DNA of 64,000 nucleotides, taken from assembly GCF_002252475.1 (NCBI RefSeq), contig NZ_NNRK01000011.1:1-64000 (forward strand), read 5' to 3'. Below, one piece after another: positions 18,962-45,956 of the stretch (the stretch's first letter is position 1; each line of letters begins with the position of its first letter). The DNA is from Brucella rhizosphaerae (GTDB lineage: Bacteria > Pseudomonadota > Alphaproteobacteria > Rhizobiales > Rhizobiaceae). The position numbers and the translations under genes are program-made. The notes below the pieces were generated by a model that was not told where the DNA came from, searched no databases, and was given only the letters and a program-made list of their open reading frames with translations.

Positions 18962-19006
18962 TAAGGATCGAGTTGACCAGCGGTGCTCGCTGAGCAACAT
19001 ATCGGC

Positions 19007-20941: not shown

Positions 20942-20952
20942 AGAGCACTATA

Positions 20953-22578: not shown

Positions 22579-24105
22579 TTAACCGATAAAGTCCCTCGCA
22601 AAGCTTTCAGCGATGGCCAATATGGCCGCATGGATAGGTCCAGCGGTCAGACTGGGTAAGACAGAGCCATCAACCACATACAGATTATCCAAACCGCGCA
22701 GTCGCAGATCAGAATCCACAACGGCAGTTTCATCCTTACCCATGCGGCAGGTGCCTGACGGATGGTGATGTGTTATCGCTGCTTTGGCAATGAAAGCGTC
22801 GATTTCGCTGTTGGTGTTAAGCGGACCCGGCAATATTTCATGATCGCGCCATTCGTCGAGCTCAGACCTGTGCCCAATTTCACGCGCTGCTTTGAGGGCG
22901 GAACGAAACAACGCTCGGTCGTTTTCTGTTTGCAAATAGCGAGGGTCTATCAGCAGAGGATCGTTGGGCTGTGTGCCGGTAATGCGGATTTCGCCACGGC
23001 TTGTTGGATGCGTCACTCCAAACAGGAAGGAATAGGCGCTCCCCGGAGCAGGCGCTGCAAAACTCTCCGAGACGATAGGAGCTACTCCGCAGCCAACAAC
23101 GATTTCGGGTTGACCATTGGCGGAGAAATCGTCTGCGCGCATGTAGGCCATGCTTTCCGAATGTTGCAGCCGGGATGGCGCTAGATGTTTTCGGGTGGCA
23201 TAAATATTTCCAGCCCCCAACAGATGATCCATCAGATTGAGGCCGAGTTCAGGCGATTGGATACGGCAGGCGACACCGGCTTCGCGCAGCACGTCTTCAC
23301 GACCGATTCCCGAACGCATAAGAAGTGCGGGGCTTTCCACTGATCCGGCGCAGAGGATTATCTGGTCGGCGGTGATTTTCATGTTGCCGGTTGGTCCAGC
23401 AATTTCGAGCGCTGTAACGTGTGATTTATTCAGTTCCAGAGAGCGTGTTAATGCGTTCGTCATGATCGTGAGGTTGGGACGAGACCGCACGGCTGGCGTT
23501 AGCCACGCTTCAGCGACCGTCACACGACGTCCATCGCGGATCATCAGCGAATTGGGTGTGACGCCGATCATCTGACCAGTATTGTGACCGGGAATGTGGG
23601 GCAGACCAAGAGCAGCTCCGGCCTCGATGAAGGATCGTGCTAAAGAGCTGACCTCTTCATCAGGGATATAGATAGGCATGGGGCCGTTTTCGCCATGGAT
23701 GCCATCGCCGCCAAGCGAATGGTTCTCGATGGCCCTAAATGCCGACTGCAATCCTTCCCAGCTCCAACGTTCGTCACCAGTCGCTTCTGCCCATGCAGCA
23801 AAATCAGCGGGATGGCCGCGCATGTAGCCCATGGCATGCAGCAGGCTTGAACCACCCAACCCCTTACCGCGCGCCCAGGAGTGTATACGCCCTGCCGTTC
23901 CCGGCTGTGGGGTGGTCTGATAGTCCCAATCATAGCTGCGATGCTGGATTGCAGGCCACATTGCCGGTTTCCAAATATCCGGATCTGTCGGTTCGCCACC
24001 GGCTTCGATCAGCACCACTTTGCGCGACTGATCTTCGCTCAGGCGTGCTGCAAGAAGGGCACCGGCAGAGCCGGCACCAATGATTGCCACATCATATTGT
24101 GCCAT
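22579..24105 (-). CDS. GMC oxidoreductase resembling pyridoxine 4-oxidase
   Basis: 508 residues, FAD-dependent glucose-methanol-choline family: FAD site IIGAGSAGALLAARL at the N-terminus, GGSSLLHAMGYMRG flavin loop, and the C-terminal catalytic region THHHPSGTCRMG and TAGPIHAAIL. From memory, the overall sequence (RSYDWDY, HAMGYMRGHP, GDGIHG, IGVTPNSL.IRDGRRV, EIVVGCGVAPIVSESF) follows Mesorhizobium loti pyridoxine 4-oxidase closely; an alignment was not run. That enzyme oxidises the 4-hydroxymethyl of pyridoxine to pyridoxal with O2. Last gene of the minus-strand operon, 4 bases after the NicX-type gene. Other alcohols are possible. Confidence 0.85.
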   Translation of the reverse strand: MAQYDVAIIGAGSAGALLAARLSEDQSRKVVLIEAGGEPTDPDIWKPAMWPAIQHRSYDWDYQTTPQPGTAGRIHSWARGKGLGGSSLLHAMGYMRGHPADFAAWAEATGDERWSWEGLQSAFRAIENHSLGGDGIHGENGPMPIYIPDEEVSSLARSFIEAGAALGLPHIPGHNTGQMIGVTPNSLMIRDGRRVTVAEAWLTPAVRSRPNLTIMTNALTRSLELNKSHVTALEIAGPTGNMKITADQIILCAGSVESPALLMRSGIGREDVLREAGVACRIQSPELGLNLMDHLLGAGNIYATRKHLAPSRLQHSESMAYMRADDFSANGQPEIVVGCGVAPIVSESFAAPAPGSAYSFLFGVTHPTSRGEIRITGTQPNDPLLIDPRYLQTENDRALFRSALKAAREIGHRSELDEWRDHEILPGPLNTNSEIDAFIAKAAITHHHPSGTCRMGKDETAVVDSDLRLRGLDNLYVVDGSVLPSLTAGPIHAAILAIAESFARDFIG

Positions 24106-24109
24106 CGGT

Positions 24110-25153
24110 TTACTTCTGATCTTCGGGGATAACCGCGCCTTCCAGCGTCATGACTTCGCCATCGAGCGAAACCGAGCAATTGCGCAGCGGAATATCGAGA
24201 TGGCAGGGCGTATCGCGATCACCACCGGCTTCCGTATTCGGACCCGACGACCAAAGGAAATTACCTGCAAAAGAGCGTGCGTCCATACCCAATTGTGCTT
24301 CCGGATTATAGAGGCCCAGAACGGTCCAATTGGCACGGTTCTCAAGTCCCCAGCCGACATGCGCCATGGCATAGGCCCGTGGATCGTTGAAGCTTTCCAT
24401 AAACTTGCGCATGAATTCGGCGTCATAGCCGCCCTTGATATCGACGATGAAGCCTTTCTCAATGGTAACGGTGATTGGAGCGCGAGCGTATTTTTTGAAC
24501 GGCAGCAGAATATCACCTTCATCAATGACGATTGTGCCCTCTGCACTGCCTTCATCCGGCCAACGGGCGGAGAAGCAGCTTGGCCAATGATCCCAGCGAC
24601 CCGGCTCATCAGCAAGGCCGTATTGGGTGAGAACCGGATATTGACCAAGGCGGCAGCGGAAATCCGTGCCTGCCTTTGAGGTCACGTGCATTTCTTTTGC
24701 TGCGCCAATTTTCTTCGCCGCAGCCAGAACGCGTAACTTATCCTCCGGGCGTGGTATCTGACGCATCATGATTGCAGGTGGCTCAACCGCCAAAAGCATG
24801 CGCGTGCCGGTTTTGAGCACCTGTTCCTGCTCTTTGGAAAACAGAAGCTGCAATGTGTCGATGACCATGTCGGACGCTTTGAGACAGGCAAGCGCCGCCG
24901 AGTTTCCATCCAGCGGGGTCTTGCCGATATAGCCTGATTTGTCTGGTGAGATTGCCTTATCGCTGTTAACGGGCGCCAGGTTCAGTTCGGTGACAACGGC
25001 CCCAAGGTCGGAAGCTGCAAGCTTGGCAATATAGGCAATCTGCTTGTTGCTGTCGTCACTTGTCAGGATCGTTACCTGCTCGCCTGCTTTCAGGTTGCAC
25101 ATTTCGAGCACCTGTCTCCAGCCCTTCAAGAACTGTGCGTCACTGATAGACAT
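24110..25153 (-). CDS. nicX: 2,5-dihydroxypyridine 5,6-dioxygenase (NicX) family
   Basis: 347 residues, about the length of NicX (350). NicX opens 2,5-dihydroxypyridine with O2 to N-formylmaleamate using one Fe(II) held by His265, His318 and Asp320. Here the same ligands are at the same numbers: His265 in AHVGWGLE, His318 and Asp320 in TPCHLDIPLRNC. Other family blocks: LLAVEPP, ADEPGRWDHWPS, IEKGFI.DI.GG and GNFLWSSGPNTE. Residue 105, His in NicX as I remember it, is Phe here (LLFSKEQEQ). The change sits by the substrate pocket and suggests a different or substituted pyridinediol, for example one with a 6-methyl group. Central ring-cleavage gene of the operon. Confidence 0.88.
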   Translation of the reverse strand: MSISDAQFLKGWRQVLEMCNLKAGEQVTILTSDDSNKQIAYIAKLAASDLGAVVTELNLAPVNSDKAISPDKSGYIGKTPLDGNSAALACLKASDMVIDTLQLLFSKEQEQVLKTGTRMLLAVEPPAIMMRQIPRPEDKLRVLAAAKKIGAAKEMHVTSKAGTDFRCRLGQYPVLTQYGLADEPGRWDHWPSCFSARWPDEGSAEGTIVIDEGDILLPFKKYARAPITVTIEKGFIVDIKGGYDAEFMRKFMESFNDPRAYAMAHVGWGLENRANWTVLGLYNPEAQLGMDARSFAGNFLWSSGPNTEAGGDRDTPCHLDIPLRNCSVSLDGEVMTLEGAVIPEDQK

Positions 25154-25279
25154 GATAATACCTCCGTTGGGCGTTGCCCGTTTGTGTCGGCCGCGTCCAG
25201 AAGAGCTTCGGTTTTGATCGACGCGCTCTTTCTGATTGGTTATCTTGGACGCAGTCAGTTCCCTCTGATGTGGATGTTT

Positions 25280-25795
25280 CTATAGCGCGGTCTGGTTGGC
25301 CAGCGTGAAGAAATTACGGTTGTAATGAAGCAGCGGCGATGTCTCGGGGCCAAAGCGGATAGCCTTTACCTGACCAATGAAAATCGAATGGCTGTCGGTC
25401 TCGGATACGGACGCGATTTCACAGTCGAGATTAGCCATCGCATGGTCAAGGGCTGGTGCTCCAGTGACAAGACGTGTCCAGCCATAAGGCGCAAATTTGT
25501 CTTCGCCCATTTCACCGATCTGGCCTGCGAAACGCATGGCGATTTCACGCTGACCATCTGCGAGAATGTTGACACAGAAATTCCCGGCAACAGTAATTGC
25601 TCTGTGGGCTTCACCGAAACGATTGACACAGACAAGCATCGAAGGCGGTGTGATTGACATCGAACAGACTGCTGTTGCGGTTAGTCCGCGTCGGGTTTCG
25701 CCTTCTCCGGCAGTAATAATATTGACTGTCGCTGCAAGCTGGCGCATCGCTGTGCGAAAATCATCGGTTAACTGATCGATGGGGGGCTGTGTCAC
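25280..25795 (-). CDS. Flavin reductase (HpaC type), partner of the HpaB-like monooxygenase
   Basis: 171 residues when started at GTG 25795, which overlaps the stop of the upstream amidase gene (GTGA) and has AAAGGAGG 8 bases before it. It shows the flavin-reductase domain pattern: FRTAMRQLAATVNIIT near the start, GLTATAVCSMS..PPSMLVCVN, FCVNIL, then a C-terminal LLHYNRNFF. Such proteins reduce FMN/FAD with NAD(P)H and hand the reduced flavin to a two-component monooxygenase, here probably the HpaB-like product of 28981-30468. The longer frame up to 25957 is not needed. Confidence 0.9.
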   Translation of the reverse strand: MTQPPIDQLTDDFRTAMRQLAATVNIITAGEGETRRGLTATAVCSMSITPPSMLVCVNRFGEAHRAITVAGNFCVNILADGQREIAMRFAGQIGEMGEDKFAPYGWTRLVTGAPALDHAMANLDCEIASVSETDSHSIFIGQVKAIRFGPETSPLLHYNRNFFTLANQTAL

Positions 25796-27090
25796 AGAGT
25801 GCCTCCTTTTGCAGCGATTGCTGTTTCCAAAAACAGTGCGGCGGCGGCAAGACGATGATCTGCGCCACGCGCACCAACCAGTTGAACGCCAACTGGCAAG
25901 CCTTTTGGCCCTTTGGATACGGGCAGACAGATCAACGGCACCTGCAACACGCTCCACAGACGGTTGTAGATTGGATCACCTGTTGCCATGCCCTCCGGCG
26001 CTTCCCCGGGAGCGGCGAGCGTAAGGACTGCGTCGAAGCGTGAAAGGATTGCATCCATTAAGTGGCGAATACCCGGAATTTCGGCCATCGCAGCCCGATA
26101 ACGTCGCTCATCGATGCAGCCCTGATCTTCCAGCATATTGCGTGTGACAGACGTCAGTTCCATCCAGTTGTGGCTGATCTCCGATGCAAGCGACTGGGTG
26201 ACTTCCCAACCCATTACCGCTTCATGCAGGTCGAATATGCCGTCATACCAGGCTGGGGCCGGGATGAGCGTCAATTCAGCGCCTTCGGCTTCGGCGAGGG
26301 ATGCAAGATGGTTGACCGTCTCAATTGCATAGTCTTCGGCCTTTTCGAGGCGCGTTCCAAGAAGCACGCCAATGCGTGGCCGCGCTGGTGGTGTCAGCGC
26401 AGCCAGTTCGGATCGACCACTTAGTGTCGCTACGCAATGAGCCGCATCACCAATGTTACGGGCGATGATCCCAAGCGTATCAAGTCCATGGCAAAGAACC
26501 TTGATGCCGACAGTATTGATTGACCCGAAGGTTGGTTTGAATGCGGTCACGCCGCAAAAACTTGCCGGACGAATGACAGAACCGGAGGTTTGGGTTCCGA
26601 ATGCGAGAGGCACCATCCCGGCGGCAACCGCAGCGCAGGACCCTGATGACGAACCGCCCGGCGTGTGAGCTGGATTGTGCGGGTTGCGGGTCTTGTTGGG
26701 ACTTGCCATGGCAAGTTCCGTGCTAACCGTTTTGCCTAAAACCAGTCCTCCAGAGTTCTTTGCGATCTGAACTGCTGGCGCATCCCACGGCGGCTGGAAC
26801 CCTTGATAAATCGTGGTTCCATATCCGGTTGGCATATCAACCGTGTCGATTACGTCTTTCACGCCGATAGGGACACCCGCAAGCGGCCCCGTGACCCCGC
26901 TTTTGTCCAGTGTGTCAGCATTGGCGCGGGCTTGTTCAACATTGAGGTGTTGCCACGCCTTGATCGGGCCATCTGTTTCGGCAATGCGTTCCAGATGTGC
27001 TTCAGTGACTGCACGGACACTCAGTTGTTGGGCATTAACGGCGGTGGCAATTTCGCGGGCGCTAAGGGCTAGAATTTGTTTATTTTTCAT
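25792..27090 (-). CDS. Amidase-signature hydrolase
   Basis: 432 residues from ATG 27090, which has AAGGA 8 bases upstream. Amidase-signature fold with the Ser-cisSer-Lys triad: Lys in GVPIGVKDVID, and the Gly/Ser motif THTPGGSSSGSCAAVAAGMV. Hydrolyses an amide bond in the cytoplasm. It sits 12 bases after a second amidase-signature gene and overlaps the flavin reductase start. Beside a ring-cleaving NicX homologue, candidates are removal of the N-acyl group from the cleavage product or hydrolysis of maleamate (inference; NicD and NicF, the known enzymes for these steps, belong to other families). Confidence 0.9.
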   Translation of the reverse strand: MKNKQILALSAREIATAVNAQQLSVRAVTEAHLERIAETDGPIKAWQHLNVEQARANADTLDKSGVTGPLAGVPIGVKDVIDTVDMPTGYGTTIYQGFQPPWDAPAVQIAKNSGGLVLGKTVSTELAMASPNKTRNPHNPAHTPGGSSSGSCAAVAAGMVPLAFGTQTSGSVIRPASFCGVTAFKPTFGSINTVGIKVLCHGLDTLGIIARNIGDAAHCVATLSGRSELAALTPPARPRIGVLLGTRLEKAEDYAIETVNHLASLAEAEGAELTLIPAPAWYDGIFDLHEAVMGWEVTQSLASEISHNWMELTSVTRNMLEDQGCIDERRYRAAMAEIPGIRHLMDAILSRFDAVLTLAAPGEAPEGMATGDPIYNRLWSVLQVPLICLPVSKGPKGLPVGVQLVGARGADHRLAAAALFLETAIAAKGGTL

Positions 27091-27101
27091 CAGTGTTTTC
27101 C

Positions 27102-28520
27102 TTAGCCGAACAATGCTGGACGACGGTCTATCCAAGGAGCTGCGCGCTCCAGTTCGGCTGCGAGTGCAAAAAGCAAAGCATCGTTTCCGAAAGCTGCGCC
27201 CAAATGCGAGCCGATAGGGAGACCGGTTGGGCTCATACCGAGCGGAACAGACATTGCAGGACAGCCGGACGTGTTGAACGCAGCCGTGAAAGGTGAGTGG
27301 GACCAGAACAGATCGTAGAATTCATCAAGGCTTTTGCCTCTGCCTGCAAGCTTGCCCAATAGTGGCGCAGGTTCGGCTGCGGCGGGCGTGAGCATGATGT
27401 CATATTGGCCGAAAAATTTTGCCATAGACCGCGACGAGGCGTGAAGCTGATTTACAGCCCAAAGATAGCGCGTGCCGGGAGTTGCCAGTGCCTCGCGCAC
27501 CCATTCCTGATTGACGGGTTCAAGCTTTGCGATGTTCGCCGATGCAGGATCGCCGCCTGTCACACCAAGCGCGACATTGACGCCGACGATAATATGCCAT
27601 GCCGTTTTAAGCGCCTCAGCATCATAACCAGCATCCGCAACTTCTTCGACATGATGCCCGAGGCTTTCAAGAAGCTTCGCTGTATCTCGAATGCTTTGGA
27701 TCATTTCAGGTGCGATATGACTGCCATCGGGCGAGGCAAGGATCATTGCAATTTTTAGGCGAGATGGAGCTTTGTCGAGTGCTGCAAGATAGCTGCCGTG
27801 TGTTGCAGGCGAAGCCCATGGATCGCCGAGGTCGCTGCCGCCAGAAATCTCCAGCATTGCAGCATTGTCGCGAACTGACCATGTTACTGCGTGAGGTGTC
27901 GACATGCCACCGATGGCTTCTGCTGCGGCAGGGCCGACAGGGTTGATCAGCCGTGATGGCTTGAAGCCAAAAAGTCCGCAATGGCTTGCGGGAAGGCGGG
28001 TTGATCCGGCACCATCTGAGCTATTGGCAAGCGGAACCATGCCGCTTGCAACGGCAGCAGTGGAGCCGCCCGATGATCCACCAGCGCTGCGGCTCAAATC
28101 CCATGGATTGCGGGTGGGGCCGAAAGCTTCAGACTCCGTTGTGAAGCTCAATGCAAATTCGGGCGTATTGGATTTCCCTACAATCACCATGCCTGCCGCT
28201 TTGTAGCGTGCGGTAATCGTGGAATCGCGCTTGCTCACTGCATTGCGCAGTAATTCAGAGCCGCTGGACAGAAGCATTCCCTCGGCTTCAAACCCTGTGT
28301 TCTTGAGCAGCATAGGCACGCCCGAAAGCGGGCTTTTCTTTAAACCATTGGCGATTTGTTGCCGGGCAAGGTCAAAATGCGCATGCACCACGGCATTGAG
28401 TTGCGGATTGAGCCGCTCTATTCGTTCGATGGTCGTATCGAGTACTTCGCCTGCACTGATCTCGCCTTTGGAAATCAGTTCGGAAATTGCGAGGCCGTCT
28501 TTTCTTGCCAGATCGTCCAT
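27102..28520 (-). CDS. Amidase-signature hydrolase
   Basis: 472 residues. Catalytic Lys in GVPMLLKNTGFEAEG and the Ser cluster in SAGGSSGGSTAAVASGMV. DGAGSTRLPA is the usual third block, here in a form common to 6-aminohexanoate-cyclic-dimer hydrolase and related amidases. Four bases downstream of the SnoaL-like gene and 12 upstream of the other amidase gene, so translated from one mRNA. Two consecutive amidases suggest that two C-N bonds are cut in sequence. Confidence 0.9.
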   Translation of the reverse strand: MDDLARKDGLAISELISKGEISAGEVLDTTIERIERLNPQLNAVVHAHFDLARQQIANGLKKSPLSGVPMLLKNTGFEAEGMLLSSGSELLRNAVSKRDSTITARYKAAGMVIVGKSNTPEFALSFTTESEAFGPTRNPWDLSRSAGGSSGGSTAAVASGMVPLANSSDGAGSTRLPASHCGLFGFKPSRLINPVGPAAAEAIGGMSTPHAVTWSVRDNAAMLEISGGSDLGDPWASPATHGSYLAALDKAPSRLKIAMILASPDGSHIAPEMIQSIRDTAKLLESLGHHVEEVADAGYDAEALKTAWHIIVGVNVALGVTGGDPASANIAKLEPVNQEWVREALATPGTRYLWAVNQLHASSRSMAKFFGQYDIMLTPAAAEPAPLLGKLAGRGKSLDEFYDLFWSHSPFTAAFNTSGCPAMSVPLGMSPTGLPIGSHLGAAFGNDALLFALAAELERAAPWIDRRPALFG

Positions 28521-28524
28521 CGTC

Positions 28525-28914
28525 TCAACTCATCTGCGCTTTAAAGAGATCAAGGTCCCACATATCTTTTGTGCCGGACAGAAGCCCATCCCTGATTTCA
28601 AAAATATGCAGACCGTCGAGGATGATTTTGCGAGGCATTATGTTCTCGCCGCGCGGGGTGAAGGTTCCTGTCATATGGTAGGGGACGGCAACCTGAGTGC
28701 CTGCACGGATATAGCCACGTCTTTCCCATGCTACATCTGGCAGCATGCGCCAGAAGCCAATCAGCCCTTCCGCCAGTGCGGCATGGCCTTCGCGACGTTT
28801 CGCCATGGCTACTTCTTCATGCCAGCCATCGGCATGATAAAGTGACACGGCTTTGTCCGCATCGCGCGATGCATAGGCATCATAAAAGCGGTCGATGAGC
28901 GTGGCGTGATCCAT
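28525..28914 (-). CDS. SnoaL/NTF2-like protein
   Basis: 129 residues from ATG 28914, preceded by GGAG at 8 bases. Pattern of an NTF2-like cone: FYDAYASRDADKAVSLYHADGW, then GHAALAEGLIGFWRMLPD and a C-terminal LDGLHIFEIRDGLL. These small proteins act as isomerases, hydratases or cyclases in degradation of cyclic compounds, but catalysis cannot be read from motifs. It lies between the monooxygenase and the amidases. An in-frame start at 28929 is less likely. Confidence 0.85.
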   Translation of the reverse strand: MDHATLIDRFYDAYASRDADKAVSLYHADGWHEEVAMAKRREGHAALAEGLIGFWRMLPDVAWERRGYIRAGTQVAVPYHMTGTFTPRGENIMPRKIILDGLHIFEIRDGLLSGTKDMWDLDLFKAQMS

Positions 28915-28942
28915 CGCAATCTCCAACAAGTCCCGATACTAA

Positions 28943-28982
28943 GAACCCCGCCCGATTTGCACCGGACGGGGCAGCGGGGTTC
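28943..28982 (-). other. Intercistronic hairpin between monooxygenase and SnoaL-like genes
   Basis: Arms GAACCCCGC and GCGGGGTTC, 28943-28951 and 28974-28982, with an inner CCCG/CGGG pair. It overlaps the stop codon of the 28981-30468 gene. No T-run, so it could tune mRNA decay or the ratio of monooxygenase to downstream enzymes. Confidence 0.5.
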
Positions 28983-30468
28983 ATTCGATGCCGGCGATTT
29001 TCTTCACCTGAGCAACGTAACCGTCTCGCTTGACTTCATTATAAAGTCTGGCGCGAAGAGCGGGCGCTGGTGTAGCGTTGACGTTTTCGAACAAGGCCAC
29101 ACGACCAGCCAGAGAACCGGACGTCATATCCCAGATGAAATTCATCAGCTGTTCTTTGACCATGGCCGAAACGCCGTGTCCGGGAAGCAACTCGTGCAGG
29201 AAGTGGCCAACTTCAGGATTGTCGAAGGCTTTCTTGCCAAAGCGCATGACCAGACCCTGGCCACACAATTCCTGCAGGATATGAATGATCTTCGGATAGT
29301 TTTCGATGGAGTAGAGACGACCGGCGGTCAACATGCCGACATCGGGACGCATGACGTCGCCTTCTGTTGGCACCGCCAATGCTTCCGCTGCCGTGACAAA
29401 TGCGCGAAGCGTCTGGGCATATTCGACCAACTGTCCAAGCATCATCTGGACGGCCGGGATTTTGCCCGTACCCAGATAATCCAGCACCATCTGTCCGGCA
29501 CCGACAAAAAGCTCTGCCTTGACTGCGAGGCGCGTGAGCACGTGCCAATGTGCGAAGACGCATACAGGCCCGTAATAGCTCATTGCCGTCGGGTCGCCGA
29601 GATTGAACAAACGTTCTTTCGGCACGAAGACATTGTCGAATACGATGAACTGATCGGCTTCCTCGCCAAGGCTCGCTACCGGATGATCGAATTTACTCGA
29701 CAATGGCTGTGAGACCATTTCGCGCGAGATCATCTTGATGCCGGGCGTGTCGATTGGAACCGAACCCCAGATGCAGGCATCTGCCGGTGTTTCCTGAATA
29801 CCACCAAGATTGGTGAAGAAAATGTCGTTGGCTTGCGCAGCAATCGAGCCTACGGTTTTCGCACCGTAAATATAGACGCCATCTTTCGTCACTTTACGGG
29901 CTTTAAGCAGCGATGCTTCGGATGCCTTAGGCGAAGAACGATCAGCCTGCGGTCCGGCAAGGCTTTCAGATGCAGTCAGATTGTTGTTCTGACCATATTC
30001 CATGTAGCGTTCGATATTCTCTGCGAAGTCGGGATCAATGCCATCAATGAGAGACTTCTTCTTTTTGAAGGTCGGCAGATAGGCATAAAGACCAACGACG
30101 ATGGATGGCGCAAGATCCGGTGGACGTCCAAAAGTGCCTGCTGTCTTGAGCGATGTATATTCGATCATCCGACGGCGTGCAGCCAGGTCTTCCCTGGTAC
30201 GTGGAATCTGCCACGAGCGGCTGAGCACAGCCCCTGCCTTTTCGTCATAATAGGTGGTGGCGTCGGCGTGTTCTTCCGTGAACTGATCGTCGAACATCGA
30301 TGCGAGAAGATCGATGCCCTTTGCCAGGGCCGGTTCGTCATAAACCGAATTCAGCTTTTGCCCGCCAACCCAGATCTGGCGATTATCTTTGAGAGATTCT
30401 TTATACTGTTCGCCGGTTTTCAGCCGGTGCGGCTTACTTACTGGTTTCGTGGCTGTTCCCTGTGTCAC
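28981..30468 (-). CDS. HpaB-type flavin-dependent aromatic/pyridine monooxygenase
   Basis: 495 residues, matching the 4-hydroxyphenylacetate 3-monooxygenase oxygenase component in length and plan: acyl-CoA-dehydrogenase-like fold, KTGEQYKESLKDNRQIWVGG at the start, DGVYIYGAKTVGSIAAQANDI in the middle, FDHPVASLGEEADQFIVFDNVFVPKERLF, and a helical C-terminal domain. It uses reduced FAD from a separate reductase (25280-25795). With NicX downstream, the likely reaction is hydroxylation of a hydroxypyridine to a para-diol, ready for ring cleavage (inference). It is the first large gene of the operon, preceded by a small carboxymuconolactone-decarboxylase-like gene. Confidence 0.9.
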   Translation of the reverse strand: MTQGTATKPVSKPHRLKTGEQYKESLKDNRQIWVGGQKLNSVYDEPALAKGIDLLASMFDDQFTEEHADATTYYDEKAGAVLSRSWQIPRTREDLAARRRMIEYTSLKTAGTFGRPPDLAPSIVVGLYAYLPTFKKKKSLIDGIDPDFAENIERYMEYGQNNNLTASESLAGPQADRSSPKASEASLLKARKVTKDGVYIYGAKTVGSIAAQANDIFFTNLGGIQETPADACIWGSVPIDTPGIKMISREMVSQPLSSKFDHPVASLGEEADQFIVFDNVFVPKERLFNLGDPTAMSYYGPVCVFAHWHVLTRLAVKAELFVGAGQMVLDYLGTGKIPAVQMMLGQLVEYAQTLRAFVTAAEALAVPTEGDVMRPDVGMLTAGRLYSIENYPKIIHILQELCGQGLVMRFGKKAFDNPEVGHFLHELLPGHGVSAMVKEQLMNFIWDMTSGSLAGRVALFENVNATPAPALRARLYNEVKRDGYVAQVKKIAGIE

Positions 30469-30537
30469 TTGGGCCTCCTATTGCAATTGGAATCGCCGGT
30501 GTTCCCCGCTTTTATGGAGCGTTTCCGGTTGTAGGTA

Positions 30538-30948
30538 TCAGGCGCTTTCTGCCTTTTCGTCCCGCATCTGACGAATGACTTCGGTAGCAACGCGCATTGA
30601 ATCGAGCGCGGCGGGAACGCCGCAATAAATGGCTGCCTGAAGAATAACCTCGACGATCTCTTCTTCCGTCACACCATTGTTCAAGGCTCCACGAACATGA
30701 ATTTTCACTTCATGTGGACGGTTCAATGCTGTCAGCATGGCGAGGTTGAGAAAACTGCGGGTCTTGCGCTCCAGCCCCGGACGGGTCCAGATTTCACCCC
30801 AGCACCATTCCGTAACAAGCTTTTGCAGCGGAGCGGTCAGGTCATCGGCCTTGGCAAGGGAAGGCGCAACATAGCCGTCGCCAAGGACCTCGCGTCTGAC
30901 CTTCAACCCTTTCTGAAATTGTTCACCGGTGAATTCGGGACGAGTCAT
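30538..30948 (-). CDS. Carboxymuconolactone decarboxylase-family protein
   Basis: 136 residues from ATG 30948 (GGAGAG just before), the usual length for PcaC-type proteins. Family motifs: TRPEFTGEQFQKGLKVRREVLG at the start, EWCWGEIWTRPGLERKTRSF, then GVTEEEIVEVILQAAIYCGVPAAL with the conserved Cys and the Gly-Val-Pro turn. In the protocatechuate pathway such proteins decarboxylate a lactone; here the role could be decarboxylation of a pyridine carboxylate or lactone intermediate. A longer start at 31041 is possible. First gene of the minus-strand operon. Confidence 0.88.
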   Translation of the reverse strand: MTRPEFTGEQFQKGLKVRREVLGDGYVAPSLAKADDLTAPLQKLVTEWCWGEIWTRPGLERKTRSFLNLAMLTALNRPHEVKIHVRGALNNGVTEEEIVEVILQAAIYCGVPAALDSMRVATEVIRQMRDEKAESA

Positions 30949-31066
30949 GCATCTCTCCGTTAAGGTGGGCAGTCCGGCAGCCTTGCTCTCGTTGCTTGGT
31001 TGCGATGATTGTGCCGTTCTGATTGTCTCAAGGTTAGACATGTCGGACTTGACCTGTCAATAGATT

Positions 31067-31089
31067 GTATGACAAGATTACGGTCATAC
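31067..31089. promoter_or_regulatory. Inverted repeat in the divergent promoter region (candidate GntR operator)
   Basis: GTATGAC-9 bases-GTCATAC, perfect arms, between the divergent starts at 30948 and 31146. Its centre holds ATTACGGT, a string also found at 37972-37979 and nearly at the GntR gene (36320-36326). Confidence 0.55.
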
Positions 31090-31145
31090 TAAAAATGAAG
31101 TCGAACGTGCTTCAGCATACAACGATATAAAATGGGAACATCACG

Positions 31146-31991
31146 GTGGATCAGGCGGCTGGACTTGATGAAAAAATAACGCCTTTTGAGCTTTATGCAT
31201 TACGCTACGCCACCCATGAAGGACGGACTGCCAAAGATAATTTTCTTTATGCAGACCCACATGAGTCGGGCGAAAATCTCGATTATTTTATCTGGCTGGC
31301 TCGTCGCGATGACGAGGTTTTCGTCATCGATACAGGCTTTGGCCAGGAAGCTGCAGACGCCCGCGGGCGCACCCTTTTGCGCCGCCCTGTGGACGCGCTG
31401 GCTTTGCTTGATGTTGATGCACAGCAAGTGCGTCAGGTGATTTTGACACATCTCCACTACGATCACGCTGGTACACTGAGTGATTTTCCGGCAGCACATT
31501 TTCATCTTCAGGTCGACGAAGCGGGACACGCCACGGGGCCATACATGTGCGACCCAAAAGCACGCGCTCCTTTCGATGTTGAGAACATCGTGGCTTATGT
31601 TCGTAACCTCTATGCCGGAAGAATAGAATTTCATCGCGGCGACAAGGAGCTGGTCTCCGGATTATGGTTGCACGCAATCCCGGGCCATAGTGCAGCTTTG
31701 CAGGCGGTGCGCGTTTACACCAAACGCGGATGGGTCGTTCTGGCGTCTGATGCAACGCATTTTTACGCCAATATGGAGCGCGAAAACCCGTTCCCGGTGC
31801 TGTTTGACGAAGCAGCTCTCATTCGCGGTTATTCAAGATTGATCGAACTGGCACCCAGCCTGAACCATATCGTGCCCGGGCATGATCCTGCGGTCATGCG
31901 TGCCTATAAAGCTCCATCAGAAAAGCTGAACGGCATTGTCGTGCGACTGGATGAAGAGCCTATCCTGCGCTGGGAGGAGCTTGCACGATGA
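31146..31991 (+). CDS. MBL-fold lactonase/hydrolase
   Basis: 281 residues, GTG start. Metallo-beta-lactamase fold with the two-zinc site THLHYDHAG (His102, His104, Asp106, His107), His181 in IPGHSA, Asp202 in ASDATH and His246 in VPGHDP. It has the N-acyl-homoserine-lactonase plan. In vitamin B6 breakdown an MBL-fold enzyme opens 4-pyridoxolactone; this protein is not an obvious close match to that enzyme, but ring-opening of a lactone made by the following SDR is the best fit in context (inference). Overlaps the next gene by ATGA. Confidence 0.88.
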   Translation: MDQAAGLDEKITPFELYALRYATHEGRTAKDNFLYADPHESGENLDYFIWLARRDDEVFVIDTGFGQEAADARGRTLLRRPVDALALLDVDAQQVRQVILTHLHYDHAGTLSDFPAAHFHLQVDEAGHATGPYMCDPKARAPFDVENIVAYVRNLYAGRIEFHRGDKELVSGLWLHAIPGHSAALQAVRVYTKRGWVVLASDATHFYANMERENPFPVLFDEAALIRGYSRLIELAPSLNHIVPGHDPAVMRAYKAPSEKLNGIVVRLDEEPILRWEELAR

Positions 31992-32770
31992 CAGTGGGTG
32001 CAGGGCGCGGGGTGCTGATTACTGGATCGGCGCTTGGTCTGGGTCTGGAGCTTGCTCGCGTATTCGCAAAGGCAGGTGACCGGGTCTTTCTCACGGATAT
32101 TTTGTCTGATGTTGACGATGCGGCAACTGCTCTGACTGGTGAAACCGGTCAGCCTGTTGGCGCATTAGCAATCGATCTTTCTCGTGAAGGCGCGGCAGGT
32201 GAGCTTGCGGCCGCTGCAAAGGAACATCTGGGCACAATCGATATCCTCATTAACAACGCTGTTATTCGCAAGATGTCGCCAGTGCAGTCGCTGGGAGATT
32301 CCGATTGGGATAGGGCGCTGGAGGTCAACCTGTCGGCCCCTTTTCGGTTAATCCGAGCCTGTCTGCCAGACATGCAGGCGTGCGGCTGGGGTCGTATAGT
32401 CAATATGGCCTCGGTTTATAGCCTGATTGCGCTTGCCGGACGCGTGGATTACGTCACCACAAAGCACGCAATGATTGGTCTTACGCGTACGGTGGCGCTT
32501 GAACTCGCCGCTACATCAATCACCTGCAATGCAATCTGCCCCGGCCTGATGGCAACAGATTCGGCGCTCAGCCGTATCGAAGCGCTGGCTGCCGAAAAGA
32601 ACATCAGCCGCGAAGAAGCCACGCGGGTTTTCCTAGCCTCCCGTCAGCCGGGTGGCAAATTTATTCCAATGGAGACGGTGACAGCACTTGCGCTGTTCCT
32701 TTGCGGTTCTGCCAGCGAGGGCATTAATGGCGCAGCTATCCCGGTAGATAATGGCTGGTCGTTTGCGTGA
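31988..32770 (+). CDS. Short-chain dehydrogenase/reductase
   Basis: 260 residues. Gly-rich LITGSALGLGLE, NN at 89-90, catalytic Ser142 (MASVYSL), Tyr155 and Lys159 (DYVTTKH). Coupled to the lactonase gene by an ATGA overlap. It could oxidise a cyclic hemiacetal of a pyridoxal-like compound to the lactone that the MBL protein opens, as pyridoxal 4-dehydrogenase does; this is inference from context. Confidence 0.9.
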   Translation: MTVGAGRGVLITGSALGLGLELARVFAKAGDRVFLTDILSDVDDAATALTGETGQPVGALAIDLSREGAAGELAAAAKEHLGTIDILINNAVIRKMSPVQSLGDSDWDRALEVNLSAPFRLIRACLPDMQACGWGRIVNMASVYSLIALAGRVDYVTTKHAMIGLTRTVALELAATSITCNAICPGLMATDSALSRIEALAAEKNISREEATRVFLASRQPGGKFIPMETVTALALFLCGSASEGINGAAIPVDNGWSFA

Positions 32771-32799
32771 AAGCTGGACCACGATAACAGGAGAGTGGA

Positions 32800-33696
32800 A
32801 TGTCTGAAGTGGGTTTTGTTGGCCTTGGCAATATGGGACGCCCTATGGCGGAGCGTATCATAGGCGCAGGCTACAAGCTTGTCGTCAATGATCGTGCAGA
32901 AACAGCCGTTGCAGCAATGGTGGCAGCAGGCGCTGAGGCCTCGGCAAGCCTTGAGGAATTGACGGGGCGGGTCGAAACCATTTTCCTGTCGCTGCCAACA
33001 CCTGAAGTAGTGCTTGCGGTCGGTCGGTCGATTGCAGCAAATCCGGGCATTGTAAAACGTGTTGTCGATCTTTCGACCACGGGTCCCAAAGCTGAGATGG
33101 ATCTGGCGGAGATATTGTCAGATGCTGGGATAGCTTTGATTGATAGTCCGGTTTCGGGCGGAGTTGCTGGCGCAAAGAAAGGTACGCTGGCCTTGATGGC
33201 CGCAGGCCCATCTGCACATTTTGAGATTGTTCTGCCGATGTTGCTGGCGCTTGGCAAGGTGATCCGTGTTGCGGAAGAGCCGGGCAAAGCGCAGGTCATG
33301 AAGCTCATCAATAATATATGCTCGGCGGCGGCACTTGCGATTACATCAGAGGCGATGGTGATGGGTGCGAAAGCTGGGCTTGATGCCGATGTTATGATCG
33401 AAGTGCTCAATGCCGGATCAGGCCGTACATCGGCGAGCGTCGACAAGATTCCGCGTTTCGTTCTGCCACGTAGTTTCGATTTTGGCTTCGCCATTGCCTT
33501 ATCTCTCAAAGATATTCGGCTTTGTCTTGAAGAAGCGGAGCGGCTTGGTGTGCCAATGCTGGTAGGGAATGCCGTGCGGATGCTCTTTTCAATCACCAAA
33601 GCCGATTTGGGCCCGGATGCAGACATGACTGCAATTATTCGTCCTTTGGAGCAGTGGGCGAATACTGAAGTGCGTGGCAAGGCTGCTGGCGTATGA
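32800..33696 (+). CDS. 3-hydroxyisobutyrate dehydrogenase-family oxidoreductase
   Basis: 298 residues. NAD(P) site GFVGLGNMGRPMAERI, substrate loop DSPVSGGVAGAKKGTL, and catalytic Lys in QVMKLINN. AGGAGAG stands before the ATG. Third gene of the plus-strand operon. Acts on a small beta- or gamma-hydroxy acid; 2-(hydroxymethyl)glutarate dehydrogenase of nicotinate fermentation belongs to the same family, which makes a pyridine-derived acid plausible. Confidence 0.9.
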   Translation: MSEVGFVGLGNMGRPMAERIIGAGYKLVVNDRAETAVAAMVAAGAEASASLEELTGRVETIFLSLPTPEVVLAVGRSIAANPGIVKRVVDLSTTGPKAEMDLAEILSDAGIALIDSPVSGGVAGAKKGTLALMAAGPSAHFEIVLPMLLALGKVIRVAEEPGKAQVMKLINNICSAAALAITSEAMVMGAKAGLDADVMIEVLNAGSGRTSASVDKIPRFVLPRSFDFGFAIALSLKDIRLCLEEAERLGVPMLVGNAVRMLFSITKADLGPDADMTAIIRPLEQWANTEVRGKAAGV

Positions 33697-33697
33697 C

Positions 33698-35071
33698 ATG
33701 GCAGGTTTAAGCACCATTCTTGCCGAGTTTGTTCATGCACCGCCAATCATGCCTGAGGTGGTGCGCGCCGCCGGACGCCGGTCGTTGCTCAACATGGTGG
33801 GTACGGCGATTGGCGGTTCAAATGAGGCCGCAATCCAAAAGCTGGCAGCAATGCTGCCAGCCTTTTCCGGTCCTGAAACGGCGAGCATTATCGGACGAAC
33901 AGAGCGGGCCGATATGCTTTGGGCCGCTTACATCAATGCGGCATCCGCCAATATTTTTGATTATGACGATACGCATATTCCGACGGTTATTCATCCAGCC
34001 GCACCCGTTGCGCCTGCTGTTCTGGCACTTGCCGAAACACTGGCTGCCGAGGGACGTCCCGTATCAGGTGGGGCGTTGATTGAGGCGTTTGTCTTAGGTG
34101 CAGAAATCACCTGCCGATTGGGAAATGCGCTTCACCCGGATCATTACGCGCGCGGATGGCATATCACTTCGACCTGTGGAGCATTTGGTGCAGCTCTGGC
34201 TGTCGGCAGACTATTGCGGCTTTCTCCATCGCAGCTTGTAGACGCTTTGGGGCATGCATTGGCGCAGGCTACGGGATCGGTTGAAACACTGGGCACAATG
34301 TCTAAAAGCCTCTCCGTAGGGCAGGCAGCACGTGCAGGACTTATGTCAGCGCTGCTTGCAGCTAAGGGCTATACTGGCCCGGATGCGCCACTGGAAGGCG
34401 CAAGGGGTTTTCTAGCCTTGCATTCTGATAACCCCGATTTTTCCGCGCTGACGGATGATCTGGGGGGCCGCTGGGAAATATTGAAGAATACGTTCAAGCC
34501 ATATCCATGTGGAGTGGTTTTGAACCCGGTTATCGAAGCCTGCCTGGCACTTCATGCGGAAGGCAACTTCAAGGCCGATGAGATAGCCTCAATTACACTG
34601 ACAGGTCATCCGCTTTTGCGTCAGCGCACAGATCGCCCGGATGTCTCGACAGGCAGGCTGGCGCAGGTCAGTGCACAACATGCGGTGGCCGTCAGCCTGT
34701 TATGGGGCAGGGCAGATCTGGAAGCTTTTTCGGACAGTGCCGTTGGTAATCCGGAACTTAAAGCCGTAGCGCGCAAGCTGTCATTTTTAGATGATCCTTC
34801 CTTTACATTTGAGGCCGCGGAAGTTTGTCTTCTGCTTCAGGATGGGCGCAAGCTTGTGCGCAAGATTGATGCCGCCAAAGGTGGACTAGAGTATCCAATG
34901 AGTGAGGCTGATCTGGCCGCGAAGTTTCGCACGCAGATTGTTTGGCGCGGGATTGAACTCGATGGCGATGCATTAATTGCTTCTCTCGGAGCGATTGAAA
35001 ATGCTGCTGATGGAGCTTCCTTCCTCGCCCTGGCGCGAGCTGACACGACTAACAAAGGGAGAGAGATATGA
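33698..35071 (+). CDS. MmgE/PrpD-family protein
   Basis: 457 residues from ATG 33698, one base after the preceding stop; a GTG at 33674 would add eight residues. MmgE/PrpD fold: FDYDDTHIPTVIHPAAPVAPA, then RGWHITSTCGAFGAA, GTMSKSLSVGQAARAG, and FKPYPCGVVLNPVIEA. The family includes 2-methylcitrate dehydratase and cis-aconitate decarboxylase, so it dehydrates or decarboxylates a tricarboxylate-like acid. Overlaps the aminotransferase start (ATGA), showing tight coupling. Substrate unknown. Confidence 0.88.
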   Translation: MAGLSTILAEFVHAPPIMPEVVRAAGRRSLLNMVGTAIGGSNEAAIQKLAAMLPAFSGPETASIIGRTERADMLWAAYINAASANIFDYDDTHIPTVIHPAAPVAPAVLALAETLAAEGRPVSGGALIEAFVLGAEITCRLGNALHPDHYARGWHITSTCGAFGAALAVGRLLRLSPSQLVDALGHALAQATGSVETLGTMSKSLSVGQAARAGLMSALLAAKGYTGPDAPLEGARGFLALHSDNPDFSALTDDLGGRWEILKNTFKPYPCGVVLNPVIEACLALHAEGNFKADEIASITLTGHPLLRQRTDRPDVSTGRLAQVSAQHAVAVSLLWGRADLEAFSDSAVGNPELKAVARKLSFLDDPSFTFEAAEVCLLLQDGRKLVRKIDAAKGGLEYPMSEADLAAKFRTQIVWRGIELDGDALIASLGAIENAADGASFLALARADTTNKGREI

Positions 35072-36249
35072 GCCACGGGAAGATTGCCGATCCGATATTC
35101 ACTTTGACCACAGGCCCGGTAGATGCTTACCCGGCCGTATTGCGTGCGCTGTCCCGGCCCGTTCTTTACGATTACGATCCGGCTTTTCTGGCGGTCTATG
35201 AATCTGTGAACGCCAAAGTGCAGCGCGCCTTCCACACCACAACACCACCGGTCATTCTTCAGGGTGAGCCAGTTTTGGGGCTGGAAGCGGCTGCTGCCTC
35301 GCTGATTGCGAAAAATGATGTCGTGCTCAATCTCGTTTCTGGCGTTTATGGCAAGGGCTTTGGCTATTGGGCTGCTCGCTATGCGAAAGAAGTTGTCGAG
35401 CTTGCAGTACCCTATAATGAAGTGCTGACAGCGAATGCCGTTGCTGATTTTTTAAAGAAGCACCCGGAGGTAGCAGTGGTTTCGCTTTGTCATCACGACA
35501 CACCATCCGGCACGGTAAACCCGGTTGCCGGAATCGGCACCGTGGTAAAGGCTGCGGGTAAGCTATTCATCGTGGATTCCGTTTCAGCTTTCGGCGGAAT
35601 GGACGTTCTGCCTGAAACAGCTTGCGCAGATATTTTTGTAACCGGTCCGAATAAATGTCTGGGCTGCCCTCCCGGACTGACACTGTTGCATGTGAGCGAA
35701 GCTGCATGGGAGAAAATAGCGGCTAATCCTGATGCACCCAAAGCCTCAATCCTGTCGATCAGTGACTGGAGGAACGCACACAGGGCCGATCGGCCATTTC
35801 CCTTCACACCATCCGTTACCGAAATCAATGCTCTTGATGCAGCACTCGATCTTTATCTGGAAGAGGGTGAGGAAGCCGTGTGGGCCCGACATGCATTGAC
35901 GGCGAAAGCCTGTCGGGCAGGTGTTCAGGCTGCCGGCCTCAAGCTTTGGGCAGCCCGTGAAGAAATTGCATCGGCAACCTGTACTGCAGTCGCAATTCCA
36001 GATGGAATCGATGAAGCGAAACTGCGTGCGTCCATACGTGACCGATATGGTGTCGTTTTCTCATCGGGTCGTGCCGAGACTCTGGGTAAGCTGACCCGAA
36101 TTGGGCATATGGGGCCAACTGCACGCCCGACATATTCGCTTATATCGGTGGCAGCAATTGCCGGGGGGCTCAAAGCCGCAGGCGTTAAAGACATCGATGT
36201 AGGGGCCGGAGTTGCAGCAGCAATGGCGGTTATATACACGGCAAAATAG
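35068..36249 (+). CDS. ppaT: Pyridoxamine-pyruvate aminotransferase
   Basis: 393 residues, class V aminotransferase fold. From memory it follows Mesorhizobium loti PPAT almost without gaps. The residues that define PPAT there (Glu68, Lys197, Arg336, Arg345) are here Glu67 (QGEPVLGLEA), Lys196 (GPNKCLG), Arg335 (SSGRAETLG) and Arg344 (LTRIGHMG), one position lower throughout. PPAT turns pyridoxamine + pyruvate into pyridoxal + alanine and needs no bound PLP, since pyridoxal itself is the substrate. It is the strongest sign that this block degrades vitamin B6 or a close pyridine relative. A related aminomethylpyridine substrate cannot be excluded. Confidence 0.9.
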   Translation: MSHGKIADPIFTLTTGPVDAYPAVLRALSRPVLYDYDPAFLAVYESVNAKVQRAFHTTTPPVILQGEPVLGLEAAAASLIAKNDVVLNLVSGVYGKGFGYWAARYAKEVVELAVPYNEVLTANAVADFLKKHPEVAVVSLCHHDTPSGTVNPVAGIGTVVKAAGKLFIVDSVSAFGGMDVLPETACADIFVTGPNKCLGCPPGLTLLHVSEAAWEKIAANPDAPKASILSISDWRNAHRADRPFPFTPSVTEINALDAALDLYLEEGEEAVWARHALTAKACRAGVQAAGLKLWAAREEIASATCTAVAIPDGIDEAKLRASIRDRYGVVFSSGRAETLGKLTRIGHMGPTARPTYSLISVAAIAGGLKAAGVKDIDVGAGVAAAMAVIYTAK

Positions 36250-36362: not shown

Positions 36363-37079
36363 ATGGCTATGTCTATGAACGGAAGAACTCCGCCTATTGA
36401 TTTTAAAGTGATAAAAGCTGCAGCACCTGTGCGTCATAGCGTTACGGAAAGCATCCGCAACTCTATCGCTGTGGGGTATTTTACGGCGGGGCAGCGTATC
36501 ACTGAACGTGACTTGTGCGAAATGACGGGTGTCAGCCGTACGGCTGTGCGTGAAGCACTCCGGCAGCTCGAAAGCGAAGGTCTGGTCGAAGTCGTTCCGC
36601 ATCGCGGGCCGATTGTGGCTCGTTTAAGGCCGGAACAGGCGGAAGGCATCTATCAGGTGCGTGTGGAGCTTGAAGGGCTGGCATGTGAACTGTTTGCCCG
36701 CAACGCCACCGATGAGGATATCGCAGCGCTGAAAGCGGCTTTCGAAGTGCTGAAGCAAGGCGACAAGGTCACTGATCCTTTGGAGCGTTTGACGGCCAAG
36801 AATGCGTTTTATGATAGCCTGATTTTTGGTGCCCATAACGAGGCGCTTGGTCATACGCTTTCTTCGCTGAATGCGCGCGTCATGGTCTTGCGCGCGACAT
36901 CATTGGGCGCGCCAGGTCGCACACGTGAAAGCCTTGCAGAACTGGAAGAAGTGGTTGGGCATCTGGCTGCCAGACGAGGCAAGGAAGCCCGCAAAGCAGC
37001 CGCTCATCATGTGATGAATGCAGGCAAAGTCGCAATTGCCATTCTGCGAGAGCGACTGGCGCAGGAAGCCGATGCCTAG
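36363..37079 (+). CDS. GntR-family regulator (FadR subfamily, FCD domain)
   Basis: 238 residues. Winged HTH at about 22-85: VTESIRNSIAVGYFTAGQRI, then MTGVSRTAVREALRQLESEGLVEV. FCD helical effector domain after that (QVRVELEGLACELFA, NEALGHTL, HHVMNAG). Lies at the end of the plus-strand catabolic operon with its own inverted repeat upstream. A pathway intermediate is the likely effector, releasing repression. A hairpin terminator follows at once. Confidence 0.9.
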   Translation: MAMSMNGRTPPIDFKVIKAAAPVRHSVTESIRNSIAVGYFTAGQRITERDLCEMTGVSRTAVREALRQLESEGLVEVVPHRGPIVARLRPEQAEGIYQVRVELEGLACELFARNATDEDIAALKAAFEVLKQGDKVTDPLERLTAKNAFYDSLIFGAHNEALGHTLSSLNARVMVLRATSLGAPGRTRESLAELEEVVGHLAARRGKEARKAAAHHVMNAGKVAIAILRERLAQEADA

Positions 37080-37083: not shown

Positions 37084-37109
37084 AACGCCGGGGTTATATC
37101 CCCGGCGTT
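37084..37109. terminator. Bidirectional hairpin between convergent genes
   Basis: Arms AACGCCGGGG/CCCCGGCGTT around a TTATAT loop, between the GntR stop (37079) and the SDR stop (37094). It extends into the last codons of the SDR gene. Strong GC stem, short T-tracts. Confidence 0.7.
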
Positions 37110-37861
37110 GCTCCACCATCCACGTTGATGACCGTGCCGTGTACATATGCGGCAGCGGGGCTGCACAAAAAGCGGACGACATCTGCTACTTCATCGGCTT
37201 CGCCATAGCGCTGTATGCCCTGTGCCTCACGAATTTCTTCGCGTGCAGCTTCAATGGAAATATTGCGGTCTCTTGCGAGCACCTCGATACGGCGGCTCAG
37301 ACGATCCGTCATGATATGGCCGGGACAGAGGGTATTGATCCGCATACCTGTGCCTTGTGCGCGTTTGGAAATCGCCTTGGTGAAGTTGATAAGTGCGGAA
37401 TTGACTGAACCACCAATAGTAAAGTCCGGCTCAGGCGTATGCGCGCCGACGCCCGATATATTGACAATCACGCCCTTGCGGTCAGACAAGGCAGCCCAGG
37501 CAGCTCGACAAAAACGCACACTGGCATGAAATTTGAGAGCAAAACCTTCCTGAAAATCCTCATCCGTCAGCGATAGGAAGTCGCCGCGCTTGGTCGCGCC
37601 AGCATTGTTTATGAGCACATCGATTTGTCCGGTTGCGCCCAGCGTCTCCGCGACCACGTGCTCAGCAGCTCCTGGTTTTGACAGATCTGCGGCAATGACC
37701 ATCACCTGTGGCGAACCAGCTGCGCGCGCCAATTCCGAAGTTTCCTCCAGCGCGGCCGCATCGCGTGCACAAAGGCTGAGCGCGAATCCGTCTTTTGCGA
37801 GCCCGATGGCGAAGGCCCGACCCAATCCGCGGCTGGCTCCAGTGACAATTGCTGTGCGCAT
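37094..37861 (-). CDS. SDR-family protein with altered catalytic tetrad
   Basis: 255 residues. Cofactor motif TGASRGLG and NNAG at about 89-92 are normal, as are the C-terminal CPGHIMTDR and NVDGGATPG. The catalytic YxxxK is not found: the matching segment reads IGGSVNSALINFTKA, with Ser in place of Tyr and Ala in place of Lys. The conserved Ser region (NISGVGAH) is present. It could act as a non-redox SDR (isomerase, dehydratase) or use other residues. It lies beside the GntR gene in the opposite direction, with ATTACGGT upstream (37972), so it is probably in the same regulon. Confidence 0.85.
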   Translation of the reverse strand: MRTAIVTGASRGLGRAFAIGLAKDGFALSLCARDAAALEETSELARAAGSPQVMVIAADLSKPGAAEHVVAETLGATGQIDVLINNAGATKRGDFLSLTDEDFQEGFALKFHASVRFCRAAWAALSDRKGVIVNISGVGAHTPEPDFTIGGSVNSALINFTKAISKRAQGTGMRINTLCPGHIMTDRLSRRIEVLARDRNISIEAAREEIREAQGIQRYGEADEVADVVRFLCSPAAAYVHGTVINVDGGATPGI

Positions 37862-38539: not shown

Positions 38540-38626
38540 TTCAAAACATTGCTCCCGGTTTCTACTTTAAAAATCATCCGGGACGGAAGAATTAGTCAAC
38601 AAAAATCTATAAAAGGGAACAATAAA

Positions 38627-45945: not shown

Positions 45946-45956
45946 GGGGCTGGTTC

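Follow-up and report, generated by a model that had tools for sequence, protein, structure and literature searches.

How does a bacterium that carries signature genes of vitamin B6 breakdown open the pyridine ring, when the enzymes encoded between those genes belong to other families? The locus that raises this question lies in Brucella rhizosphaerae (assembly GCF_002252475.1; genome 4.9 Mb), within positions 1 to 64,000 of the forward strand of contig NZ_NNRK01000011.1; this whole stretch of 64,000 nucleotides, which begins at the start of the contig, is what we call the window. To our knowledge, two routes of vitamin B6 breakdown have been described, and in each a single-component flavoprotein opens the ring. 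In the window, genes for a putative pyridoxine 4-oxidase (PNO) and a putative pyridoxamine-pyruvate aminotransferase (PPAT) enclose instead an HpaB-type oxygenase with a flavin reductase, a NicX-like dioxygenase and two amidases. On the comparisons that follow, we think it probable that this cluster is a vitamin B6 catabolic system with a third ring-opening route.

The cluster is built of two divergent arms, the minus-strand arm running from 31041 down to 22579 and the plus-strand arm from 31146 to 36249, followed beyond PPAT by a GntR gene, a second short-chain dehydrogenase/reductase (SDR) gene on the opposite strand and a BMP-type ATP-binding cassette (ABC) transporter. Its genes, each arm in its own reading order, are as follows.

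30538..31041, minus strand: PcaC-like protein of the carboxymuconolactone decarboxylase family (148.6 bits to TIGR02425, 4-carboxymuconolactone decarboxylase, below its cut-off of 155.7; same superfamily by PF02627, 86.7 bits)
28981..30468, minus strand: HpaB-type oxygenase, proposed C6 hydroxylase (PF11794, HpaB_N, 208.9 bits; PF03241, HpaB, 136.2 bits)
28525..28929, minus strand: SnoaL/NTF2-like protein, common to both lineages of the cluster (PF12680, 58 bits; no match below E 0.03 against the PDB)
27102..28520, minus strand: amidase-signature amidase B (PF01425, 276.8 bits)
25792..27135, minus strand: amidase-signature amidase A (PF01425, 216.8 bits)
25280..25795, minus strand: flavin reductase, RutF/HpaC-like, proposed partner of HpaB (PF01613, 132.3 bits; GTG start inferred, as it overlaps the stop codon of amidase A; the open reading frame extends to 25957)
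24110..25153, minus strand: NicX-like non-haem Fe(II) ring-cleavage dioxygenase, with Gln177 replacing Glu177 (398 bits to 7cn3)
22579..24105, minus strand: putative PNO, a GMC flavoprotein, pyridoxine to pyridoxal (790.6 bits to PDB 4ha6/3t37)
31146..31991, plus strand: lactonase-like hydrolase of the metallo-beta-lactamase (MBL) fold, outside the 4-pyridoxolactonase family by profile scores
31988..32770, plus strand: SDR dehydrogenase (SDR1), nearest to 3-hydroxybutyrate dehydrogenases
32800..33696, plus strand: 3-hydroxyisobutyrate dehydrogenase (HIBDH)-like protein, HIBDH2
33674..35071, plus strand: MmgE/PrpD-like protein, nearest solved relatives IDS epimerase and cis-aconitate decarboxylase
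35068..36249, plus strand: putative PPAT, pyridoxamine to pyridoxal (NF046070, 644.6 bits, cut-off 600; 2z9u, 560.2 bits)
36363..37079, plus strand: GntR regulator, kept close to PPAT in window-type clusters
37094..37861, minus strand: second SDR, in window-type clusters only
38528..39670, plus strand: BMP-type solute-binding protein of a proposed B6 importer (PF02608)
39783..41402, plus strand: ABC transporter ATPase
41399..42490, plus strand: ABC transporter permease 1
42500..43432, plus strand: ABC transporter permease 2

As far as predicted function goes, PPAT and PNO tie the cluster firmly to vitamin B6. PPAT lies above the curated NF046070 cut-off, and PNO is near-identical in kind to the solved enzyme (against the same 4ha6 entry, the PNO by the B6 locus of Mesorhizobium loti DSM 2626 scores 598.8 bits). 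A scan with PPAT confirmed 246 stretches, the best 80 of which were kept and sorted by tblastn under identity thresholds set by the analyst (at least 55% for HpaB); the sorting queries were the 4-pyridoxolactonase of locus L060 and the pyridoxal 4-dehydrogenase (PLDH) of L040, both above the cut-offs of their own families. The HpaB set never shares a locus with the lactonase/PLDH set among these 80: HpaB is present at 23, lactonase and/or PLDH at 51 (at 48 of which both occur), HpaB with either of them at none, and neither set at six. The loci of the second set are referred to as Mesorhizobium-type, a class defined by lactonase and/or PLDH alone and not by MHPC oxygenase. The BMP gene is found at 23/23 of the HpaB-type PPAT loci and at 45/48 of the loci with both lactonase and PLDH, and we propose the BMP-type transporter as a third tie to B6, a presumptive importer by association. 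Because PPAT is over its cut-off, PNO is of the solved kind and the transporter is common to Mesorhizobium-type B6 loci, vitamin B6, which an earlier note on this DNA had named as the substrate, is the substrate that we retain. The gene set described in that note has also held up, in that every gene it named is in place and the arrangement recurs at 23 of the 80 PPAT loci, more than chance would give.

The six loci with neither set are varied. Three (L020, L022 and L041) are short contigs, the first two with window-type genes; L065 and L076 show PPAT only. In the sixth, L010 (B. grignonensis), the flavin reductase lies close to the end of the PrpD-like gene (8494-10004), with HpaB, the amidases and the rest between them missing; the middle of the cluster seems to have been lost there. 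Separately, a Tepidamorphus bin (L060, 9165-17789) may show a further gene combination: after lactonase, PPAT and PLDH come distant relatives of the flavin reductase (29%) and of HpaB (26%), a gene for a small cupin-like protein (by eye) and one for an amidase (29%).

The association is also found from the other side. With NicX alone as query, 58 of 397 genomes of the order matched; the genome's own copy and seven others exceeded 60% identity (the seven at 62-69%), and the next stood at 55%. All seven carry HpaB at 72-76% beside NicX, with PPAT and PNO in the neighbourhood. They are L142, L161-L165 and Labrenzia sp. 011, the last already in the PPAT set (L055, the same as L140 with identical reading frames), so that six are new. 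A search of 385 genomes of the class with HpaB at E 1e-150 returned only the genome it came from. One alternative is that the cluster breaks down another 3-hydroxypyridine, PNO and PPAT having been recruited for a look-alike of B6. Related HpaB and NicX-like sets do occur on Thioclava, Terrarubrum and Peribacillus plasmids with neither PPAT nor PNO in the stretch, which speaks for such a substrate; yet PPAT and PNO lie near the cluster in 7/7 of the genomes found through NicX, PPAT exceeds its equivalog cut-off and lactonase/PLDH B6 loci have an ABC transporter of this kind, and we accordingly hold the look-alike to be quite unlikely.

The 23 HpaB loci fall into two lineages. Sixteen, the lineage of the window, have the MBL, SDR1, HIBDH2 and PrpD-like genes; these four are lacking from the other seven (Labrenzia, four Ancylobacter, Rhizobium FKL33 and an Enterobacterales bin) within the stretches examined, often only 10 kb. 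The second lineage keeps PPAT, PNO, HpaB, SnoaL and at least one amidase. In place of the four missing genes, six of its stretches (L100, L141, L143-L146) encode a PcaC-like protein, an alpha/beta hydrolase, a crotonase-like protein (by eye) and a further HIBDH-like protein; the hydrolase of L146 is PcaD-like at 164.8 bits against a cut-off of 255.85. In a PPAT tree the HpaB-linked sequences are found in two separate places, together with the window type in the first and next to lactonase/PLDH sequences in the second; nearest to the PPAT of the window are strains named Brucella and Ochrobactrum, which are environmental species. In the Enterobacterales bin (L064, 2132-3688) the PNO-like gene is split across two reading frames, and the PPAT of L035, recorded as Mycobacterium sp. 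KBS0706, groups with Inquilinus, so that the name may be wrong.

Might these genomes hold a complete canonical B6 pathway elsewhere, an outcome that the earlier note had set as counting against its proposal? Three family models (PLDH, NF047923; 4-pyridoxolactonase, NF047925; FHMPC dehydrogenase, NF042925) were run on 14 genomes, 13 with the cluster and an M. loti control. All three were over cut-off in the control and none in any of the 13, for six of which completeness is not stated and in one of which (G476) the PLDH model scored 99 of 198 candidates. In the genome of the window itself, the best scores were 210.3 bits for PLDH of the SDR type (cut-off 325; the best is not SDR1), 47.3 bits for 4-pyridoxolactonase (cut-off 325; the MBL protein of the window scores 40-43) and 165.3 bits for FHMPC 5-dehydrogenase (cut-off 500). 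As for the ring-opening flavoprotein, the genome has 28 FAD_binding_3 matches, and the five strongest resemble other enzymes (no MHPC oxygenase profile was run); one such protein, compared with the PDB, gave 54 bits to MHPC oxygenase and 178 to salicylate monooxygenase. No MHPC oxygenase appeared in a motif scan of the loci collected, which could miss one, nor in the list of reading frames upstream of PNO in M. loti DSM 2626. At locus L099 of this strain, a cupin resembling gentisate dioxygenase (4833-5984; 209 bits, cut-off 442) is flanked by the gene for FHMPC dehydrogenase and by a GMC gene for a possible 4-pyridoxate dehydrogenase; as no MHPC oxygenase was apparent in the vicinity, this strain may open the ring in yet another way.

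What, then, would HpaB do? It is among the best-conserved genes of the cluster, and it falls short of the HpaB-1 cut-off (221.1 vs 480.2 bits). Its leading PDB matches are 7dbw (213.5 bits), the 4-nitrophenol 4-monooxygenase 9j9j (213.4) and chlorophenol 4-monooxygenases at 200.5-207.3 (3hwc, 207.3), with the HpaB of Thermus (170.8) and 6qyh (124.8) lower. By manual count, His309 of the window protein aligns with His293 of 7dbw, and it is kept in 12/13 aligned homologues, the exception being the distant HpaB of L060. HadA, a member of this group, is reported to place a hydroxyl at the para position of phenols without a para group, a histidine being the proposed base (PMC6180312), and His309 would be the counterpart of that histidine. 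On the B6 ring, C6 is para to the 3-hydroxyl and is the sole free ring carbon; hydroxylation there would give a 2,5-dihydroxypyridine pattern. That HpaB instead hydroxylates ortho to the 3-hydroxyl, or acts at another step, with NicX opening another bond, is a reading for which one can point to the ortho-acting members of the family and to the name of the top PDB match. With both ortho positions of B6 substituted, para-acting enzymes scoring about equally and NicX known for the 2,5-dihydroxy pattern (PMC7910607), this reading appears very improbable.

The NicX homologue aligns with P. putida NicX (7cn3) over residues 1-345. The reported ligands of the iron in that enzyme are His265, Ser302, His318 and Asp320 (PMC7910607); all four are kept in the window protein. 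Of the substrate contacts, His189 is retained and Glu177, described as contacting N1 and O1 of the substrate (PMC7910607), is replaced by Gln. Gln177 is present in 16/16 distinct cluster-linked sequences. Glu177 is present in 17 other distinct homologues, including 6/6 beside nicC/D-type genes (L148, L150, L151, L153, L169 and L170); nine distant homologues have Val, and two partial rows give no residue. We take Gln177 as a sign of a shift in substrate, not as proof of one.

Put together, these enzymes suggest a pathway. PNO and PPAT would deliver pyridoxal from pyridoxine and pyridoxamine, respectively; HpaB and the flavin reductase would place a hydroxyl on C6 of pyridoxal or of an oxidised form; and the NicX homologue would split the ring between the former C2 and C3. 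Because C2 carries the methyl group, the product would be an N-acetyl rather than an N-formyl amide, which would explain why amidase-signature amidases replace NicD and NicF: the two would do the work of both, releasing acetate and ammonia. The remainder would be a butenedioate bearing the former C4 group and a CH2OH, able to close to a butenolide. Balanced by hand, pyridoxal (C8H9NO3) would take up O to give C8H9NO4 and O2 to give C8H9NO6, which with two water, less acetic acid and ammonia, would leave C6H6O6, a formyl-hydroxymethyl-butenedioic acid; with C4 as carboxylate, an aconitate-like tricarboxylate would arise instead. The PcaC-like, lactonase, HIBDH-like and PrpD-like proteins, the last near cis-aconitate decarboxylase, would fit such compounds and may complete the route, with a C4 acid, for example succinate semialdehyde, as its outcome. 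For the HIBDH-like enzyme, the CH2OH would by then be positioned as in 3-hydroxyisobutyrate.

The type of ring opening, by HpaB and NicX, is that of the earlier note and is supported by the gene set; the order of steps is where we depart from it. There, C4 oxidation, lactone formation and opening, and decarboxylation came first. Applied to the genes of the window, an SDR would make 4-pyridoxolactone from pyridoxal, the MBL protein would open it to 4-pyridoxate, and decarboxylation would leave a simpler methylpyridinediol for HpaB and NicX. In the window type, the genes for an MBL lactonase-like protein and an SDR do adjoin each other near PPAT, and enzymes of these kinds also occur at Mesorhizobium-type loci. 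Neither belongs to the known families, however: the MBL protein is far from the 4-pyridoxolactonase cut-off, SDR1 is nearest to 3-hydroxybutyrate dehydrogenases, and neither gene was found in the second-lineage stretches examined. The early decarboxylation fares no better, as the sole decarboxylase-like gene of the minus-strand arm is the PcaC-like one, whose position near a PcaD-like hydrolase in the second lineage points to action after ring opening. We therefore consider the earlier order improbable, though less so than the two alternatives already discussed, and 2-methylpyridine-3,6-diol a possible substrate of NicX but not the likeliest.

Our fullest reading, offered tentatively and at somewhat less than even confidence, is of a third aerobic B6 route that would bypass 4-pyridoxic acid. 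Pyridoxal itself would receive a hydroxyl at C6; a NicX tuned by Gln177 to 6-methyl rings would then split the bond between C2 and C3, two amidases would release acetate and ammonia, and a PcaC-like decarboxylase and a lactonase would process the remaining carbon skeleton. This late part would have been assembled twice, the window lineage using an MBL lactonase and the second lineage a PcaD-like hydrolase. Among the matches listed in the open-licence literature (titles and abstract openings), none described B6 breakdown through HpaB or NicX, which is no proof of absence.

Several points weigh against this proposal. The chemistry of every cluster gene is inferred from sequence, and the scheme assigns no step to SnoaL, nor does it account for C4 handling in the second lineage. 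The top PDB match of HpaB, by a hair, is 7dbw, an entry named 4-hydroxyphenylacetate 3-hydroxylase, and because this is an ortho name our confidence is slightly lowered. Gln177 also occurs in three other homologues: those of Thioclava and Terrarubrum, in clusters with HpaB and two amidases and with neither PPAT nor PNO in the stretch, and that of L133/L167 (9784-15181; 36% identity), which adjoins genes resembling molybdenum hydroxylase (by eye) and does not lie with HpaB and two amidases. The survey of this residue covers 30 of the 62 NicX match rows, and since the 16 cluster sequences form one related group, a change inherited from a single event may account for Gln177. Residue 105 fails to separate the NicX groups and was rejected as a marker, Phe being found also in nicotinate-type clusters such as L150. 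Lastly, P. putida NicX is reported to be active on 2,5-dihydroxypyridine only (PMC7910607), so a 6-methyl substrate for the homologue is a prediction.

Some neighbouring genes were considered for membership and set aside. HIBDH1, an HIBDH-like gene, and an aldehyde dehydrogenase gene (20051-22497) are not beside PNO in the relatives examined (the R. daejeonense plasmid, L089-L091); they form part of a stretch adjoining PNO, 17804-22497, that also holds M20 hydrolase and LysR genes and is not there in those relatives. An FAD synthetase-like gene (PF06574, 43448-44236) 3' of the transporter reaches its full length at just two window-type loci, L009 and L015; the HpaB clusters of Thioclava, Terrarubrum and Peribacillus contain weaker relatives. 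Farther along, at 44276-56899, Pfam matches identify an aromatic amino acid lyase, an amidohydrolase, an S-Me-THD-like protein and urocanase, to which an M20-type hydrolase and an adjoining osmoprotectant-type ABC transporter can be added by eye; the stretch resembles an ergothioneine-type or other imidazole catabolic cluster. In addition, 10285-11697 encodes a protein with many short repeats that, by eye, we take to be of the trimeric autotransporter head kind.

If the proposed route is correct, it would add to B6 catabolism a chemistry based on a two-component flavin oxygenase and a non-haem iron dioxygenase, suggest likely substrates for families without an assignment (the SnoaL-like protein, the MBL lactonase and the PrpD-like enzyme), correct annotations such as "4-hydroxyphenylacetate 3-hydroxylase" and make residue 177 a test point for substrate choice in NicX.

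How does the cluster compare with known systems? With B6 degradation pathway I of Mesorhizobium loti MAFF303099 it shares PNO and PPAT and, at Mesorhizobium-type loci, the BMP-type ABC transporter; it differs in that the cluster genomes have no PLDH, 4-pyridoxolactonase or FHMPC dehydrogenase over cut-off. MHPC oxygenase opens the ring in pathway I, and HpaB and NicX are predicted to take its place here. Like the nicotinate nic pathway (NicC, NicX, NicD, NicF and NicE), the cluster has a NicX-type dioxygenase with the same iron ligands; unlike it, HpaB and a flavin reductase stand for NicC, two amidase-signature amidases for NicD and NicF, and Gln177 for Glu177, and no NicC, NicD, NicF or NicE was recognised among the genes scanned at 17.8-37.9 kb. 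The plasmid clusters of Peribacillus, Thioclava and Terrarubrum (L107-L109) resemble it in HpaB (49-65%), a NicX-like dioxygenase and a flavin reductase, and differ in having neither PPAT nor PNO in the stretch; that of Peribacillus has Glu177, an alpha/beta hydrolase and an isochorismatase, and those of Thioclava and Terrarubrum have Gln177 and two amidases. The Peribacillus plasmid (L109, 11992-22407) also carries two HpaB copies (49%) and Asp/Glu racemase genes, and may act on plain 3-hydroxypyridine. Finally, the HadA/TftD/TcpA two-component flavin monooxygenases include, in the TcpA and TftD entries (202-207 bits), some of the closest solved relatives of HpaB, and, as in HadA/TftD-type enzymes, the protein has both an HpaB_N and an HpaB domain, its cluster also encoding a flavin reductase; here, in contrast, the oxygenase is linked to B6 genes, its predicted substrate is a hydroxypyridine, and its para-hydroxylation is predicted by analogy.

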